A DNA stretch of 25,321 nt from a virus. Each line of letters opens with the position of its first letter. Position 1 is the first letter of the stretch. Of this stretch, positions 12,006 to 21,469 are shown piece after piece. The translations under genes were made by a program, and so were the position numbers. The DNA lies in IMG/VR virus record IMGVR_UViG_3300030098_001381, positions 1-25,321 of that record. One strand, given 5' to 3'. The notes under the pieces were generated by a model. It saw nothing but the letters and a program-made list of their open reading frames with translations. It was not told the DNA's origin and searched no databases.

Positions 12006-12199
12006 TGGACGTTATTGCCTTAACAGAGCATTTGTTAAAGAACATACGTCAGCAAAAAGAGGACTACACGACAATGCTGGCGAATGGTGCGGTAGAAGAT
12101 ATGGAAAACTACCGATTTGTGGTGGGTCAAATACGCGGACTGACTTACTGTGAAGAAGAAATAAGAGCCGCGATGAAAGGTGTCATTGAAGATGGCTAA
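12005..12199 (+). CDS. Small helical protein of unknown function (64 aa)
   Basis: ATG 12005 is joined to the holin stop (TAATG). The 64 residues are acidic and helical, with EHLLKNIRQQKEDYTTML and YRFVVGQIRGLTYCEEEI, a pattern seen in short phage proteins that sit before capsid genes. No membrane segment. The stop lies 8 nt inside the co-chaperonin gene. Function unknown. Confidence 0.78.
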   Translation: MDVIALTEHLLKNIRQQKEDYTTMLANGAVEDMENYRFVVGQIRGLTYCEEEIRAAMKGVIEDG

Positions 12200-12677
12200 A
12201 AAACTATTCGTGCCTGAAAGGGTTGCGGCAAATATGAAGTCTGACACGCCACAGACTAAAATCCCAAAGGCGATTGAAAAGGCTTTACCAGAGCAAGAAG
12301 AAAACAAAAACACAGAAAATCCAGAAAATATGGATGTTTCTGCCCTTGATAGATTGCCAAACCCTGTAGGTTATAGGCTTTTGGTAATCCCATATTACCC
12401 CCCAGCCAAGACAAAAGGCGGTATTTATGTGCCAGATGCTACTCGTGACAGAGAAGCATTTGCAACAGTTGCAGCGTATGTTGTTAAGGTTGGCCCTGAC
12501 GCATATAAAGACCAAGACAAGTTCCCCTCTGGCGCTTGGGCGCATGAGAAATCTTGGGTTCTTATGGGAAGATATGCTGGAAATAGGTTCAAAGTGGAGG
12601 GTCTTGAGGTTCGTCTCATAAATGACGATAATATTATCGCCACTATACTTGACCCAGCAGATATCTCATATGTATAA
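12192..12677 (+). CDS. GroES-like co-chaperonin
   Basis: ATG 12192 is preferred over an upstream GTG at 12180. After a polar extension (1-53) the GroES fold covers about 54-158: PVGYRLLVIPYYPPAKTKGG is the first strand plus mobile loop, and GGIYVP (76-81) holds the hydrophobic tripeptide IYV that contacts GroEL. Then come EAFATVAAYVVKVGPDAYKD and the C-terminal strands with INDDNIIATI. At 161 aa it is longer than bacterial GroES (about 97 aa), as with T4 gp31, which widens the folding chamber for the T4 capsid protein. Position just before scaffold and capsid genes supports a role in folding the major capsid protein with host GroEL. Confidence 0.9.
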   Translation: MAKKLFVPERVAANMKSDTPQTKIPKAIEKALPEQEENKNTENPENMDVSALDRLPNPVGYRLLVIPYYPPAKTKGGIYVPDATRDREAFATVAAYVVKVGPDAYKDQDKFPSGAWAHEKSWVLMGRYAGNRFKVEGLEVRLINDDNIIATILDPADISYV

Positions 12678-17112: not shown

Positions 17113-17234
17113 ATAAAAACAAAAAAGCAAAAGTTAAAAAAGTTATTAAAGGTTTGAAAAAAGCATCTAAACTACATGCTAAACAAGCAAAAAGTTTAAA
17201 AGGTGTGTTAAATGGCAAAAAGAAAAGATCCTAA
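17109..17234 (+). CDS. 41-aa Lys-rich peptide
   Basis: ATG 17109 overlaps the previous stop (ATGA) and the frame closes at TAA 17232-17234, 23 nt inside the next gene. Sixteen of 41 residues are Lys. The peptide reads as one amphipathic helix (KVIKGLKKASKLHAKQAKSL, 11-30) followed by KGVLNGKKKRS. The ribosome-binding site is weak, so translation would rely on coupling. It is close in style to short basic peptides in marine phages. The codons for KGV also give the AAAGG site of the 17212 gene. Confidence 0.65.
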   Translation: MNKNKKAKVKKVIKGLKKASKLHAKQAKSLKGVLNGKKKRS

Positions 17235-17508
17235 AGTAGGTACAGGTAAAAAACCAAAAGGAAGCGGGAGAAGACTTTATACCGATGAAAACCCAAAAGA
17301 CACTGTATCTATAAAGTTTGCCACTCCTACTGATGCAAGGGCCACAGTTTCTAAGGTTAAAAAGATAAACAAACCATTTGCTAGAAAGATACAAATACTT
17401 ACAGTTGGTGAGCAAAGGGCCAAAGTTATGGGCAAAACGCAAGTGGCAAGTATATTTAAAAAAGGCAAAGAAAGTTTAAGAAAGGCTAGAAAAAATGCAA
17501 AAACGTAG
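17212..17508 (+). CDS. Basic phage protein of the KKPKGSGRRLYTDENP type (98 aa)
   Basis: ATG 17212 follows AAAGGTG (17200-17206). The N-terminus (AKRKDPKVGTGKKPKGSGRR then LYTDENPKDTVSIKF) is a pattern I recognise from many marine phages, with function unknown. A helical region rich in Lys/Arg follows (TPTDARATVSKVKKINKPFA; QILTVGEQRAKVMGKT), ending in a basic tail. No membrane segment or catalytic signature. The context among small basic proteins favours a nucleic-acid or virion-interior role. It overlaps the 17495 gene by 14 nt. Confidence 0.83.
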   Translation: MAKRKDPKVGTGKKPKGSGRRLYTDENPKDTVSIKFATPTDARATVSKVKKINKPFARKIQILTVGEQRAKVMGKTQVASIFKKGKESLRKARKNAKT

Positions 17509-17719
17509 CGGAACACCAAAAGGCCTTACTTATTTTAGGAAAGGTGGTGCGGCTTCTAAAAAGTCAAAAGGTAGTAAAATATGTCCAGAGGGTAAAGCCT
17601 GGGCAAAACGTACTTTTGATACATACCCAAGCGCATATGCAAACCTTGCTGCATCAAAGTATTGTAAAGACCCTAATTACGCTAAAAAGTCTAAGGGCGG
17701 CAAAAGAAAGGGTAAGTAA
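17495..17719 (+). CDS. Basic protein with YPSAYAN motif (74 aa)
   Basis: ATG 17495 lies in the end of the previous gene, with AAAGG at 17482-17486 upstream. It has FRKGGAA (14-20), the recurrent GG motif. Then KAWAKRTFDTYPSAYANLAA (34-53) and SKYCKDPNY, a W-A-K-x-x-F-x-x-Y-P-S-A-Y-A-N pattern I know from short basic proteins of phages and large DNA viruses. The end is Lys/Gly-rich (KSKGGKRKGK). Two cysteines (30, 57). No function is established for this pattern. Likely acts with the neighbouring basic proteins; the next gene shares a base with its stop. Confidence 0.82.
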   Translation: MQKRSGTPKGLTYFRKGGAASKKSKGSKICPEGKAWAKRTFDTYPSAYANLAASKYCKDPNYAKKSKGGKRKGK

Positions 17720-18087
17720 TGGGGGAGCTTAAAAAATGGCTAAAACAAGATTGGGTTAGGATTGGCACTGATGGAAGTATCAAAGGTAAATGTGGTACAT
17801 CTAAAGACAAGAAAAACCCAGACCGCTGCCTACCAGCTTCAAAGGCTAGAAGCCTCTCAAAGGCTGAAAGAGCGTCTACAGCAAGAAAGAAAAAGAGAGC
17901 GGGAGCAAAAGGCAAGACAGTGGTATCTAATACAAAACAAGCCAAAGTCAGAAACCTCGCAAAGGGAGGTCCAGCTAAACGCCCTTTCAAGGGCAAAAAG
18001 GTGGCTGGCACGGCTGTTGCTAGGGGATGCGGTGTGATAATGTCTAACCGTAGAAAACGCACAAAAGGTGCGGTAACTCAGTCATAA
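17719..18087 (+). CDS. Basic protein with CLPASKARSLSKAER motif (122 aa)
   Basis: The start shares a base with the previous stop (TAATG). The N-terminal part (LKKWLKQDWVRIGTDGSIKG, 4-23; KCGTSKDKKNPDRCLPASKA, 24-43; RSLSKAERASTARKKKR, 44-60) is a compact motif I know from small phage and virus proteins (DUF5872-like; the exact Pfam should be checked). Two cysteines at 25 and 37 bracket a Lys/Asp loop and may bind metal. The rest is a basic tail containing LAKGGPA (80-86) and RPFKG. Function unknown; nucleic-acid binding is inferred. Confidence 0.82.
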   Translation: MGELKKWLKQDWVRIGTDGSIKGKCGTSKDKKNPDRCLPASKARSLSKAERASTARKKKRAGAKGKTVVSNTKQAKVRNLAKGGPAKRPFKGKKVAGTAVARGCGVIMSNRRKRTKGAVTQS

Positions 18088-18097
18088 GGAGACTTAA

Positions 18098-18367
18098 ATG
18101 GCTATGAAGAAAAAAGGCTACCGTGCTGGTGGCAAAGTTAAAAAAATGGCTAAAGGTGGCGCTGCTGGCGGCAAGAAAATGAGAAGAATGGCTAAAGGTG
18201 GTGCTGCTGGTGGCAAAAAGATAAGAAGAATGTCCAAGGGTGGCGCTATGGGCGGCAAAAAAGTCAGAAGAATGTCTAAAGGTGGAACCGCTGGCGGCAA
18301 GAAAATGACTGTTGCACAACTTCGTTCTGCTGCTAAAAAGCTAGGATACAAAGTATCTAAAGCATAA
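18098..18367 (+). CDS. Lys/Gly-rich tandem-repeat protein (89 aa)
   Basis: ATG 18098 follows AAGGAG (18087-18092). The protein is made mostly of four tandem 14-residue units (15-28, 29-42, 43-56, 57-70) of the form (K/R)(K/R)M(A/S)KGG(A/T)(A/M)GGKK(M/I/V). An earlier partial element, YRAGGKV, lies at 8-14. Thirty of 89 residues are Lys or Arg. The tail (TVAQLRSAAKKLGYKVSKA, 71-89) is a separate short helical piece faintly resembling SAP or Rho-N DNA-binding helices. A flexible, highly positive repeat fits DNA neutralisation inside the head or RNA binding. Each repeat is also a copy of the GG motif found in other proteins here. Confidence 0.85.
   Translation: MAMKKKGYRAGGKVKKMAKGGAAGGKKMRRMAKGGAAGGKKIRRMSKGGAMGGKKVRRMSKGGTAGGKKMTVAQLRSAAKKLGYKVSKA
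18140..18307 (+). repeat. Four tandem 42-bp coding repeats
   Basis: Four head-to-tail 42-nt units coding for the 14-residue repeats of the 18098 gene. The DNA copies differ at many third positions and a few amino acids, so the array is diverged rather than freshly duplicated. Confidence 0.85.
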
Positions 18368-19044
18368 TGCCATATTTATATAGCAATGTTCCCTACTTTA
18401 AGGCATGGGTGCGGCGCGAGTATACTCATAACCATGAGGACTATCATGGTGAGTTTTTGCACGCAATGGTCGTTGGCGTAACGTCCATGCCTAACAGATG
18501 TCTAAGTTTCCAAGTTATGTTTACTGGAAGTGAAGCAGAAGGTGAGGAAGAAGATACGGTACATGGAGGTGCAATGTGGGCTAGAATGCCCATAACCGCT
18601 CTAGTTGCTGATATACCTTTAGAGGAATGGCCTGAACCAATGAACACATATGATGCTCAACCTTGGGATTGTTCATCACATAATCACGCTGTTTATGTGA
18701 TAGACCGAGCTACGCCCTGCCCTTGGTTGGCTAAAATAAATAGTGAGTTTTTTCCTGCAAAGTATCTTTTTACAGTAGATTACTCCGAGTCTGAGATAGC
18801 AGATGATCCAGCACAGCATAAACAAAGTCATGTTTTGCAACTGCTTGATGCTGGTGAATGGACAGGAAACATTGTTGCCCTGCCTAATAATCGTGTAAGG
18901 GTTACACACCCTGCTTGGTTTGAAACAGGCGAAGGTGCGCCACATTTCAAGCCCTCTCAGCATATACACTATTCAAAAAGTGATTTAGACTATACACTAG
19001 ATGTAAATAGGATATTTGATAACCTTTACAATGAGGAAGAGTGA
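18367..19044 (+). CDS. Conserved-type marine phage protein, unknown function (225 aa)
   Basis: The start shares a base with the previous stop (TAATG). This is a globular, acidic, aromatic-rich protein without membrane segments or low complexity: PYFKAWVRREYTHNHEDYHG (9-28), RCLSFQVMFTGSEAE, HGGAMWARMPITALV, DDPAQHKQSHVLQLLDAGEW and NNRVRVTHPAWFETGEGAP. The many His and Trp residues in conserved-looking blocks suggest a well-folded domain, perhaps metal-binding. I associate it with a hypothetical found just before the adaptor genes in marine phages. A neck or tail role is inferred from position. Confidence 0.82.
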   Translation: MPYLYSNVPYFKAWVRREYTHNHEDYHGEFLHAMVVGVTSMPNRCLSFQVMFTGSEAEGEEEDTVHGGAMWARMPITALVADIPLEEWPEPMNTYDAQPWDCSSHNHAVYVIDRATPCPWLAKINSEFFPAKYLFTVDYSESEIADDPAQHKQSHVLQLLDAGEWTGNIVALPNNRVRVTHPAWFETGEGAPHFKPSQHIHYSKSDLDYTLDVNRIFDNLYNEEE

Positions 19045-19712
19045 TGGCTGTTTCTGGCTCAACCGATTTTGAATTAGATGTATCTGATTACATTGAAGAG
19101 GCCTTCGAGCGTTGTGGTTTAGAGGTTAAAACAGGTTATGACCTAAAAACAGCCAAGCGCTCGATGAACCTCATGTTTGCGGAGTGGGCAAACAGGGGTC
19201 TTAACCAATGGACTATAGTTCAAAGAACAATATCACTTACAGCAGGAACTAATAGTTATACGCTTGGATCTGATGTTATTGATGTTTTGTCTGCTGTTGT
19301 TCGCAGGAGTAATACAGACATTAGTATGTCTAAAATTAGTCGTGATGAATATTTGAACATTCCAGAAAAAACTACTCAAGGCAGGCCAACACAGTTCTTT
19401 ATTGACAGGCAGGTAACGCCTGCAATCAAAATATGGCCCGCTCCTGAAAATGCTACTGATGTTATCTACTATGATACTTTAACTAGAATTGATGATGCAG
19501 ATACTTTCACCAATACCGTTGATGTGCCGTTTAGATTTTATCCGTGTTTAGCTGCTGGTTTGGCATACTATTTATCAATAAAACGTGCGCCAGATCGTAT
19601 TCAAATGTTAAAAGCTGTTTATGAAGAAGAATTTGATAGAGCTTTAACAGAAGATAGAGATAGGGCTTCTTTTAACGTAGCTCCTAGTTTAAGTTTTTAC
19701 AGGGTGTCGTAA
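19044..19712 (+). CDS. Head-tail adaptor protein 1 (SU10 adaptor-like)
   Basis: ATG 19044 shares a base with the previous stop (TGATG); GTG 19041 is an alternative. The 222-aa protein has an N-terminal helix pair (DVSDYIEEAFERCGLEVKTG; AKRSMNLMFAEWANRGLNQW), a beta region (TISLTAGTNSYTLGSDVIDV), then PTQFFID and IKIWPAPENATDVIYYDTL, and a C-terminal helical part (FRFYPCLAAGLAYYLSIKRA; YEEEFDRALTED). This layout matches phage adaptor/connector proteins that attach to the portal and form the first neck ring. The 20825-21469 gene has the same layout with little identity. Marked as adaptor by architecture; P22 gp4-like function is inferred. Confidence 0.78.
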   Translation: MAVSGSTDFELDVSDYIEEAFERCGLEVKTGYDLKTAKRSMNLMFAEWANRGLNQWTIVQRTISLTAGTNSYTLGSDVIDVLSAVVRRSNTDISMSKISRDEYLNIPEKTTQGRPTQFFIDRQVTPAIKIWPAPENATDVIYYDTLTRIDDADTFTNTVDVPFRFYPCLAAGLAYYLSIKRAPDRIQMLKAVYEEEFDRALTEDRDRASFNVAPSLSFYRVS

Positions 19713-20167
19713 TGCCTAAATATGCGGCTGGAAAATACGCATATGGAATATCAGACCGTTCTGGTTTTCGTTATCGTTTGAAAGATATGCGAAAAGAGTG
19801 GAATGGATTTCTTGTGGGCAAAGATGAGTATGAAGAAAAGCATCCGCAATTAGAGCCTCGTAGACACCCAACAGATGCAGAGGCTTTGAGAGATCCAAGA
19901 CCAGATACAAATAACATCATTCCAATAACAGCAAATATACCTTCTTTTAATTTAGAAACATTACAATTTATTCCTGTGCCTCTTTTGTTAGGAAAAGTTG
20001 GAACAGTAACTTTTAGTGATGATGTTGTTACGCCAGTACAGTTAACAGGCGTTTCTTCTGTTAGCGCACTTGGATCTGTAACAGTATCAGTGCCAACATC
20101 AGCATCGACCTTTGATTCAACAAGTGTTACACTCGATTCTACAAACAAAACTTTTGACGAGGGTTAA
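19712..20167 (+). CDS. Neck/tail-region protein with GISDRSGFRYRLKDM motif (151 aa)
   Basis: The start shares a base with the adaptor stop (TAATG). The N-terminus (PKYAAGKYAYGISDRSGFRY, then RLKDMRKEWNGFLVGKDEYE) and HPQLEPRRHPTDAEALRDPR form a strongly patterned block (2-65) that I know from marine phages as a hypothetical next to the adaptor. The C-terminal half is Ser/Thr/Val-rich and beta-like (VGTVTFSDDVVTPVQLTGVS; SVTVSVPTSASTFDST), similar in style to tail proteins. Probably a connector-associated protein with a variable tail; function unknown. Confidence 0.8.
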   Translation: MPKYAAGKYAYGISDRSGFRYRLKDMRKEWNGFLVGKDEYEEKHPQLEPRRHPTDAEALRDPRPDTNNIIPITANIPSFNLETLQFIPVPLLLGKVGTVTFSDDVVTPVQLTGVSSVSALGSVTVSVPTSASTFDSTSVTLDSTNKTFDEG

Positions 20168-20821
20168 ATGGCAAAGCAAACAGTAGGGATTGGGTCAAGC
20201 GCAAACGATGGCAGTGGCGATACTCTTCGTGCTGGTGCGGATAAAATTAACGACAATTTCAATGAAATCTATGCAGCGTTAGGGAATAGCTCTAGCGTTC
20301 TAACTGATATCATAGATGCAAACGGTCTTTTTGACGTTAGTTCTGGCGCAAACAAAATTGTTTTCTATTATGCTGCTTTAAGTGATTTGCCCAGTGCATC
20401 AACTTATCATGGGGCTGTGGCTCATGTTCATGCTACGGGCGGCTTGTATTTTGCTCATGGCGGTAACTGGATACGGTTAAACGATGAAACCACTGGTCCT
20501 GTAACAAAATACACAACAACATCAGCAAATGGATCTGCTTATCAATTTTCTGGTCCAGGTGCTACCGCTGGTAACAATCCTAATTTTACCTTTTACAAAG
20601 GTCACACATATTTAATCGACAACACCTCCTATGTTAGCAGTCATCCTTTGCAGATACGAACAGCCTCTGGTGGGTCTGCTTTTACAACAGGGGTTACAGA
20701 TAATTACAACAGCACTACTGGGCTAACTCAGTTTATTGTGCCGCATGAGCCAAGTGACACTTCTTTAGTATATCAATGCACTGTTCATAGCAGTATGGTT
20801 GGAAACATAACAATAGTGTAA
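20168..20821 (+). CDS. Tail protein with cupredoxin-like C-terminal domain
   Basis: ATG 20168 directly follows the previous stop. The N-terminus (VGIGSSANDGSGDTLRAGAD, then KINDNFNEIYAALG) is a module found on many phage tail and fibre proteins. A beta region follows. Residues about 113-217 look like a cupredoxin (blue-copper) fold: FTFYKGHTYLIDNTSYVSSH, then HPLQIRTASGG, FIVPHEPSDTSLVYQCTVHS and SMVGNITIV. The ligands of a type-I copper site are all present in order: H159, then C204, H207 and M210 spaced C-x2-H-x2-M, as in amicyanin. Similar domains occur in cyanophage virion proteins as far as I know. Copper binding is inferred; the domain could also be only structural. Confidence 0.78.
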   Translation: MAKQTVGIGSSANDGSGDTLRAGADKINDNFNEIYAALGNSSSVLTDIIDANGLFDVSSGANKIVFYYAALSDLPSASTYHGAVAHVHATGGLYFAHGGNWIRLNDETTGPVTKYTTTSANGSAYQFSGPGATAGNNPNFTFYKGHTYLIDNTSYVSSHPLQIRTASGGSAFTTGVTDNYNSTTGLTQFIVPHEPSDTSLVYQCTVHSSMVGNITIV

Positions 20822-20824
20822 AAA

Positions 20825-21469
20825 ATGACATATACGAACACAACATTAAAACAAGCTATTCAAGACTTTACAGAAAATGACGAAACCACATTCGTAAGTA
20901 ATTTGAATAACTTTATCATTAATGCGGAAGAACGAATCCTTAAGCTTGTTGACCTTGATTACTTTAGAAAGAATGTGACTGCTTCAACAACTTCAGGGAA
21001 CAAATTTCTAGCATTGCCTGACGATTATCTAGCCACATTCTCACTTTCAATCGTTAACAGCGGATCAAATGAGTTTTTACTTCAGAAAGACGTAAACTTC
21101 TTGCAGGAATATTCTCCAGACCCAACGGTTACTGGCGTTCCTAAGTATTACGGTATTTTTGACGTTGATAATCTAATTTTAGCCCCAACGCCTAATCAAG
21201 CATATTCTGCTGAACTACATTACTATTATAGGCCGCAGTCAATCACCGCAACGGCTTCAGGAACATCTTGGTTTGGTGACAACGCTCCAGACACATTGTT
21301 GTATGGTTCATTGGTTGAGGCTTACACATTTATGAAAAGTGAACCGACTTTTATTCAACTATACGAGCAACGGTTTGTAGAAGCCGTTACAAGGTTGAAA
21401 GTTTATGCAGAGGGTGTAGAAAACACTGACGCATATAGAACGGGATTAACAAGAGTAAGAAAGCAGTAG
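20825..21469 (+). CDS. Head-tail adaptor protein 2 (SU10 adaptor-like)
   Basis: ATG 20825 follows the previous stop by 3 nt. The 214-aa protein shows the SU10-type adaptor pattern: an N-terminal helix pair (NTTLKQAIQDFTENDETTFV; NLNNFIINAEERILKLVDLD), LALPDDYLATFSLSIV, VPKYYGIFDVDNLILAPTPN, AELHYYYRPQSIT, then TSWFGDNAPDTLLYGSLVEA and a closing helix YEQRFVEAVTRLKVYA. This is the clearer of the two adaptors. It should form a dodecameric ring under the portal; the paralogue at 19044 may form a second ring or another connector layer. Confidence 0.86.
   Translation: MTYTNTTLKQAIQDFTENDETTFVSNLNNFIINAEERILKLVDLDYFRKNVTASTTSGNKFLALPDDYLATFSLSIVNSGSNEFLLQKDVNFLQEYSPDPTVTGVPKYYGIFDVDNLILAPTPNQAYSAELHYYYRPQSITATASGTSWFGDNAPDTLLYGSLVEAYTFMKSEPTFIQLYEQRFVEAVTRLKVYAEGVENTDAYRTGLTRVRKQ

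Follow-up and report, generated by a model that had tools for sequence, protein, structure and literature searches.

Can a phage tail protein carry a complete type-1 copper ligand set, and is such a set maintained among its relatives? This question was raised by an open reading frame (ORF) at positions 20168..20821 (plus strand, stop codon included) of IMG/VR virus record IMGVR_UViG_3300030098_001381, of which positions 1 to 25,321 were analyzed (25,321 nucleotides, hereafter the window). The ORF encodes a protein of 217 aa, and profile and fold matches assigned a cupredoxin-type domain to its C-terminal residues 114–217 (20507..20818, plus strand); the range 20507–20821 named in the original prediction corresponds to this domain plus the stop codon. 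The four putative ligands lie at the residues that had been predicted, all encoded on the plus strand: the first His, H159 (20642..20644), with P160 next to it; C204 (20777..20779), which closes the penultimate strand; the second His, H207 (20786..20788); and the axial Met, M210 (20795..20797), directly before the last strand. C204 is the sole Cys in the protein, and M210 is its sole Met apart from the start. Among the window's 254 open frames with 40 codons or more, the CxxHxxM motif occurs once; when the residues of the 217-aa protein were shuffled, it arose in 34 of 100,000 shuffles, and in 18 of 100,000 together with a His 25–60 residues upstream. The retention of the ligands among relatives, described below, appears more telling than these chance odds. 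Upstream of the domain lies a middle stretch with H81, H86, H88, and H97 (20408..20458, plus strand, positions read from the sequence), which contains an HVH motif and was kept in all 12 full-length sequences listed; it resembles the HxH metal motifs known from tail fibers.

The prediction that the C-terminal residues, about 105 of them, form a cupredoxin-like sandwich was borne out by a family profile and by an AlphaFold2 model with fold comparison. The single window sequence found no match in the PDB, the NCBIfam search gave no match, and the Pfam search gave no family for the C-terminal domain; Copper-bind (PF00127) did not match the window domain at E <= 1, a threshold at which it recovered 6 of 13 relatives, and at E <= 0.01 it recovered 7 of 42. 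A profile of 42 relatives, searched against PDB sequences, matched plastocyanin (E 1.3e-5) and amicyanin (E 4.6e-5), with H159 in the column of the first His ligand of both, and with C204, H207, and M210 in the columns of their C-H-M loop; antibody chains also matched this profile, at E 0.0024 and weaker. A smaller profile (13 rows) matched nitrite reductase and amicyanin (E of about 2.4e-4) and plastocyanin (0.0037). The model of the domain had a mean pLDDT of 85.7 and a pTM of 0.78. In this model, Cys204 closes the DSSP strand 86–91 and Met210 precedes strand 98–103 (residue numbers of the domain model), a predicted placement that is the usual type-1 arrangement; the ligands follow the order His...Cys-His-Met, with His and Met in the loop after the penultimate strand. 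Foldseek placed cupredoxins (AcoP, rusticyanin, and amicyanin) on top among solved structures, with a best E of 3e-3, but these scores were modest (no E <= 1e-3, TM 0.4–0.57), and Ig-like domains stood in the same list. VIA-align superposed 91 of the 104 residues on a domain of the three-domain nitrite reductase 2dv6 (Z 9.7, rmsd 2.5) and gave a Z of 8.6 for rusticyanin. In the full-length model, only the C-terminal domain was reliable; residues 1–110 had mostly pLDDT < 60, and helix 19–37 falls in this low-confidence part. A second cupredoxin domain was not found within the window, where the next best candidate had an i-E of 1.7.

To what extent are the ligands conserved? Two scans used a pattern that included the C-H-M cluster; their loci prove nothing on conservation for that reason and were excluded as evidence. 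A selection bias behind ligand conservation was rejected by using a ligand-free pattern instead: viral contigs were scanned for L-Y-x-x-R-G-x-T-Y-x-F-x-N, which lies upstream of all four ligands. This ligand-blind scan gave at least 120 loci, of which 4 were cut by contig ends and 116 were readable. The original prediction had set against itself the case that homologues keep the fold and drop the ligands; run on these relatives, this case failed in 113 of 116, which hold all four ligands among the matches listed. The spacing C-x2-H-x2-M, predicted to be that of amicyanin and present in the window protein, was found with the upstream His in 109 of the 116, and His with Cx4Hx2M in 4; ligands were lost in the remaining 3 (L259, L263, and L270), again among the matches listed. 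In the 107 distinct sequences among these matches, M210 was conserved in 107, H159 in 106, C204 in 98.1%, and H207 in 97.2%, and the four ligands ranked among the nine best conserved of the 88 columns outside the scan pattern. Furthermore, the ligands were invariant in 75 close full-length genes, yet their His and Cys codons varied synonymously. In a phage collection, the full set was present in 16 of 17 domains, taken from 16 loci fetched out of 322 matching records; the sole exception was S-CAM1 (L096), in which the domain is broken off before C-H-M. In this proximal tail fiber gene, a C-H-M end piece precedes its headless partner, which runs into other sequence, and the broken domain suggests recombination. 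A disulfide as the explanation for the conserved Cys was rejected, because only one Cys is present in 265 of the 270 distinct full-set domains, which excludes an intradomain bond. On these sequence comparisons, we consider it probable that the four residues are selectively maintained as a complete type-1 copper ligand set.

The pattern of ligand loss bears on whether the residues act together. We surveyed loci from IMG/VR and genome contigs, a sample that mixes loci obtained with the cluster-containing and the ligand-free patterns; H-C-H-M was present in 341 of 394 domain hits (270 of 319 distinct), and 266 of the 270 distinct full-set domains had the CxxHxxM spacing. Of the 49 distinct domains in which the set is incomplete or absent, 38 differed at three or four ligand columns, 2 at two, and 9 at one, with the proviso that some of the missing states are alignments that end early and not proven losses. 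The nine single-column changes comprised Met to Gln (five), Met to Lys (one), second His to Tyr (one), and an unaligned first His (two). Since 38 of the 49 differ at three or four ligands, the four residues tend to be either all retained or lost together. Divergent copies (L241, L279, L287, L268, and L205) include these exchanges of the axial Met for Gln or Lys, and other copies, in large marine phage proteins, lack most ligands. As several phage copies have lost the ligands, virions can make use of the fold without metal. One could read the window domain as an inherited cupredoxin fold that binds no metal and keeps these residues for folding or partner binding, and the ligand-poor copies that persist in large marine phage proteins, together with L270, which retains the fold signature with three ligands gone, agree with such a reading. 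Nevertheless, we regard it as very unlikely, given that the four ligands are conserved jointly across relatives only about 30–50% identical, that losses mostly take three or four of them together, and that the Cys has no disulfide partner.

If a metal is bound, its identity and its use have to be weighed. Heterologously expressed cupredoxins also take Zn at their His/Cys/His/Met sites, and a purely structural staple of Zn, or of Cu(I) alone, coordinated by these residues without a blue center would account for conservation within a decoration domain. Against Zn stand the Met, invariant in the 107 sequences among the matches listed, and its exchange for Gln, both of which are characteristic of type-1 copper but rarely seen with Zn; we judge the staple improbable. 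A redox-active blue copper center could instead act at the host surface, exchanging electrons or sensing redox or copper state, for instance through docking to electron-transfer partners of the host. Such a tuned site would need the strict full ligand set, and in five distinct domains the axial Met is exchanged for Gln, the axial type-1 ligand of stellacyanin. Gln is likewise given as a natural axial ligand of type-1 sites in an excerpt of PMC6400189. However, the window yielded neither a redox partner nor a copper-handling gene, an electron circuit is not obvious in a virion, and the surroundings of the ligands are unlike those of known carriers. In plastocyanin and amicyanin, Asn follows the first His ligand and a Pro lies just ahead of the second (C-x-P-H), whereas Pro follows the first His in 264 of the 270 distinct full-set domains and none of the 270 has Pro at C+2; the window protein has H159-P160 and C-T-V-H where amicyanin has His-Asn and C-T-P-H. 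If the Cys sulfur normally accepts a hydrogen bond from the amide that follows the first His, Pro at this position would remove that bond, and the non-Pro residue in C-T-x-H could supply a replacement from the other side; this setting would be expected to alter the reduction potential. A redox function is thus possible from the ligand set, but we consider a redox-active center at the host surface unlikely.

The gene context places the domain in a predicted tail protein. Residues 3–61 (20174..20350, plus strand) form a T4 gp9/gp10-like N-terminal segment, a likely virion anchor, which matched T4_gp9_10_N (PF07880) with 31.3 bits against a cut-off of 25 over profile positions 1–60 of 175 only. 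The whole 217-aa protein matched PHROG 677, baseplate wedge tail fiber connector, and tail-adaptor genes lie nearby, all of which agree with the assignment as a tail protein in the original prediction. An upstream tail-adaptor gene is located at 19041..19712, and the genes directly upstream (19712..20167) and directly downstream (20825..21469; SU10 adaptor family, PF24175, 87.7 bits against a cut-off of 27), all on the plus strand, flank the domain gene. Farther upstream, several short Lys/Gly/Ala-rich ORFs stand in a row at 17212–18367, one with repeated GGxKxxRMxKGG units, and the ORF at 12180–12677 resembles a GroES co-chaperonin, judged by eye. The portal, capsid, and adaptor proteins of the window indicate a relationship with the Pelagibacter phages HTVC023P and HTVC027P and with phages related to them. 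Both flanking genes are conserved in HTVC023P, HTVC027P, 023Pt_psg01, and CRP-902, where their counterparts adjoin; a counterpart of the 20168–20821 gene between them was absent in all four. The domain gene is an extra in the window's own lineage, inserted into the tail region. In 023Pt_psg01 (L319:194-1291), a related domain (E 9.8e-19, loop C-T-A-H-S-G-M) is fused to the N-terminus of the counterpart of the adaptor at 19041..19712. Because it is a separate gene in the window and an adaptor fusion in 023Pt_psg01, the domain seems to be a transferable module, joined to the adaptor region in its own way by each of these related phages.

A copper-binding virion domain had been predicted to be unusual, but among marine phages the domain is not: tblastn matched it in 322 records of cyanophages and marine phages, and it is common in cyanophage baseplate and fiber proteins. 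The closest models in BFVD were cyanophage baseplate connectors and proximal tail fibers; "Beta-sandwich proteins" of Pithovirus and Marseillevirus also matched the model there, at E 4e-4 to 3e-3. A plasmid search gave no match at E <= 1. Genome contigs searched with the cluster-containing pattern yielded 23 loci in bacterial and archaeal assemblies. One of them, L176, lies on contig NZ_RMVE01000006.1 (188,235 bp) of the assembly of a Bacteroidetes isolate, Nonlabens xiamenensis; 12.3 kb of the contig was compared, and this piece matches cyanophage P-TIM40 (188,632 bp) from end to end at 99.0% identity; the contig is therefore very likely a whole cyanophage genome. As at least one of the 23 loci is on a phage contig, we do not claim a cellular origin.

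Taken together, we favor the explanation that the window protein probably displays, on the virion, a cupredoxin domain with an intact type-1 copper ligand set that serves as a decoration or attachment module. In a podovirus related to the Pelagibacter phages, the gp9/gp10-like N-terminal anchor would hold the domain on the virion near the adaptor or neck region. Each domain would most likely take up one copper ion, either during assembly or out of seawater. The sandwich, locked by the metal, would then act as a robust decoration or attachment module, comparable to the Ig-like domains that other phages attach to their structural proteins. More tentatively, and with some doubt, we suggest that marine tailed phage virions might carry a standard copper-loaded blue-copper module in cyanomyovirus baseplates, podovirus fibers, and neck-adaptor proteins, with natural Met/Gln axial tuning, the unusual His-Pro and C-T-x-H setting, and a copper state that affects stability or attachment. 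Should these domains bind copper, a considerable part of all cyanophage and marine phage virions would count as copper proteins. Phage particles would then require a metal and might possess a redox switch, the availability of copper in the ocean would bear on phage stability and infection, and a cupredoxin subfamily with its own second-sphere chemistry would be added.

Compared with known systems, the window domain has in common with amicyanin and plastocyanin (PF00127) the fold, detectable by profiles, the ligand order, and a Cys that closes the penultimate strand, and with amicyanin also the C-x2-H-x2-M spacing; however, these are free electron carriers, whereas the window domain is part of a predicted virion protein. 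The 2dv6 nitrite reductase domain, rusticyanin, and AcoP are the best fold matches, yet they are only 13–20% identical and belong to another protein context. PHROG 677 and the cyanophage gp9 "baseplate wedge tail fiber connector" proteins share the C-terminal domain, the ligands, and the T4 gp9/10-like N-terminus, although the gp9 proteins have about 400–500 aa, compared with 217 aa here, and different middle parts. Copper ligands are absent from the name of PHROG 677 and from the annotations of the 16 phage records fetched, and the open-access literature searched contained, by title or abstract start, no description of a cupredoxin or blue copper domain in virions. The fold and the ligand set are already known; their union in a conserved virion module that has a second-sphere signature of its own seems, within those titles and abstract openings, not to have been described. 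Ig-like phage decoration domains are beta-sandwich modules spliced onto structural proteins; the modular use is analogous, and in the window domain family a complete metal ligand set is conserved in addition. Metal on the phage tail has itself been proposed before, for the iron-binding HxH tail fibers of the "Ferrojan horse" (an excerpt of PMC11705849). Those fibers involve iron and HxH motifs, whereas the window domain carries a predicted site of the cupredoxin type.
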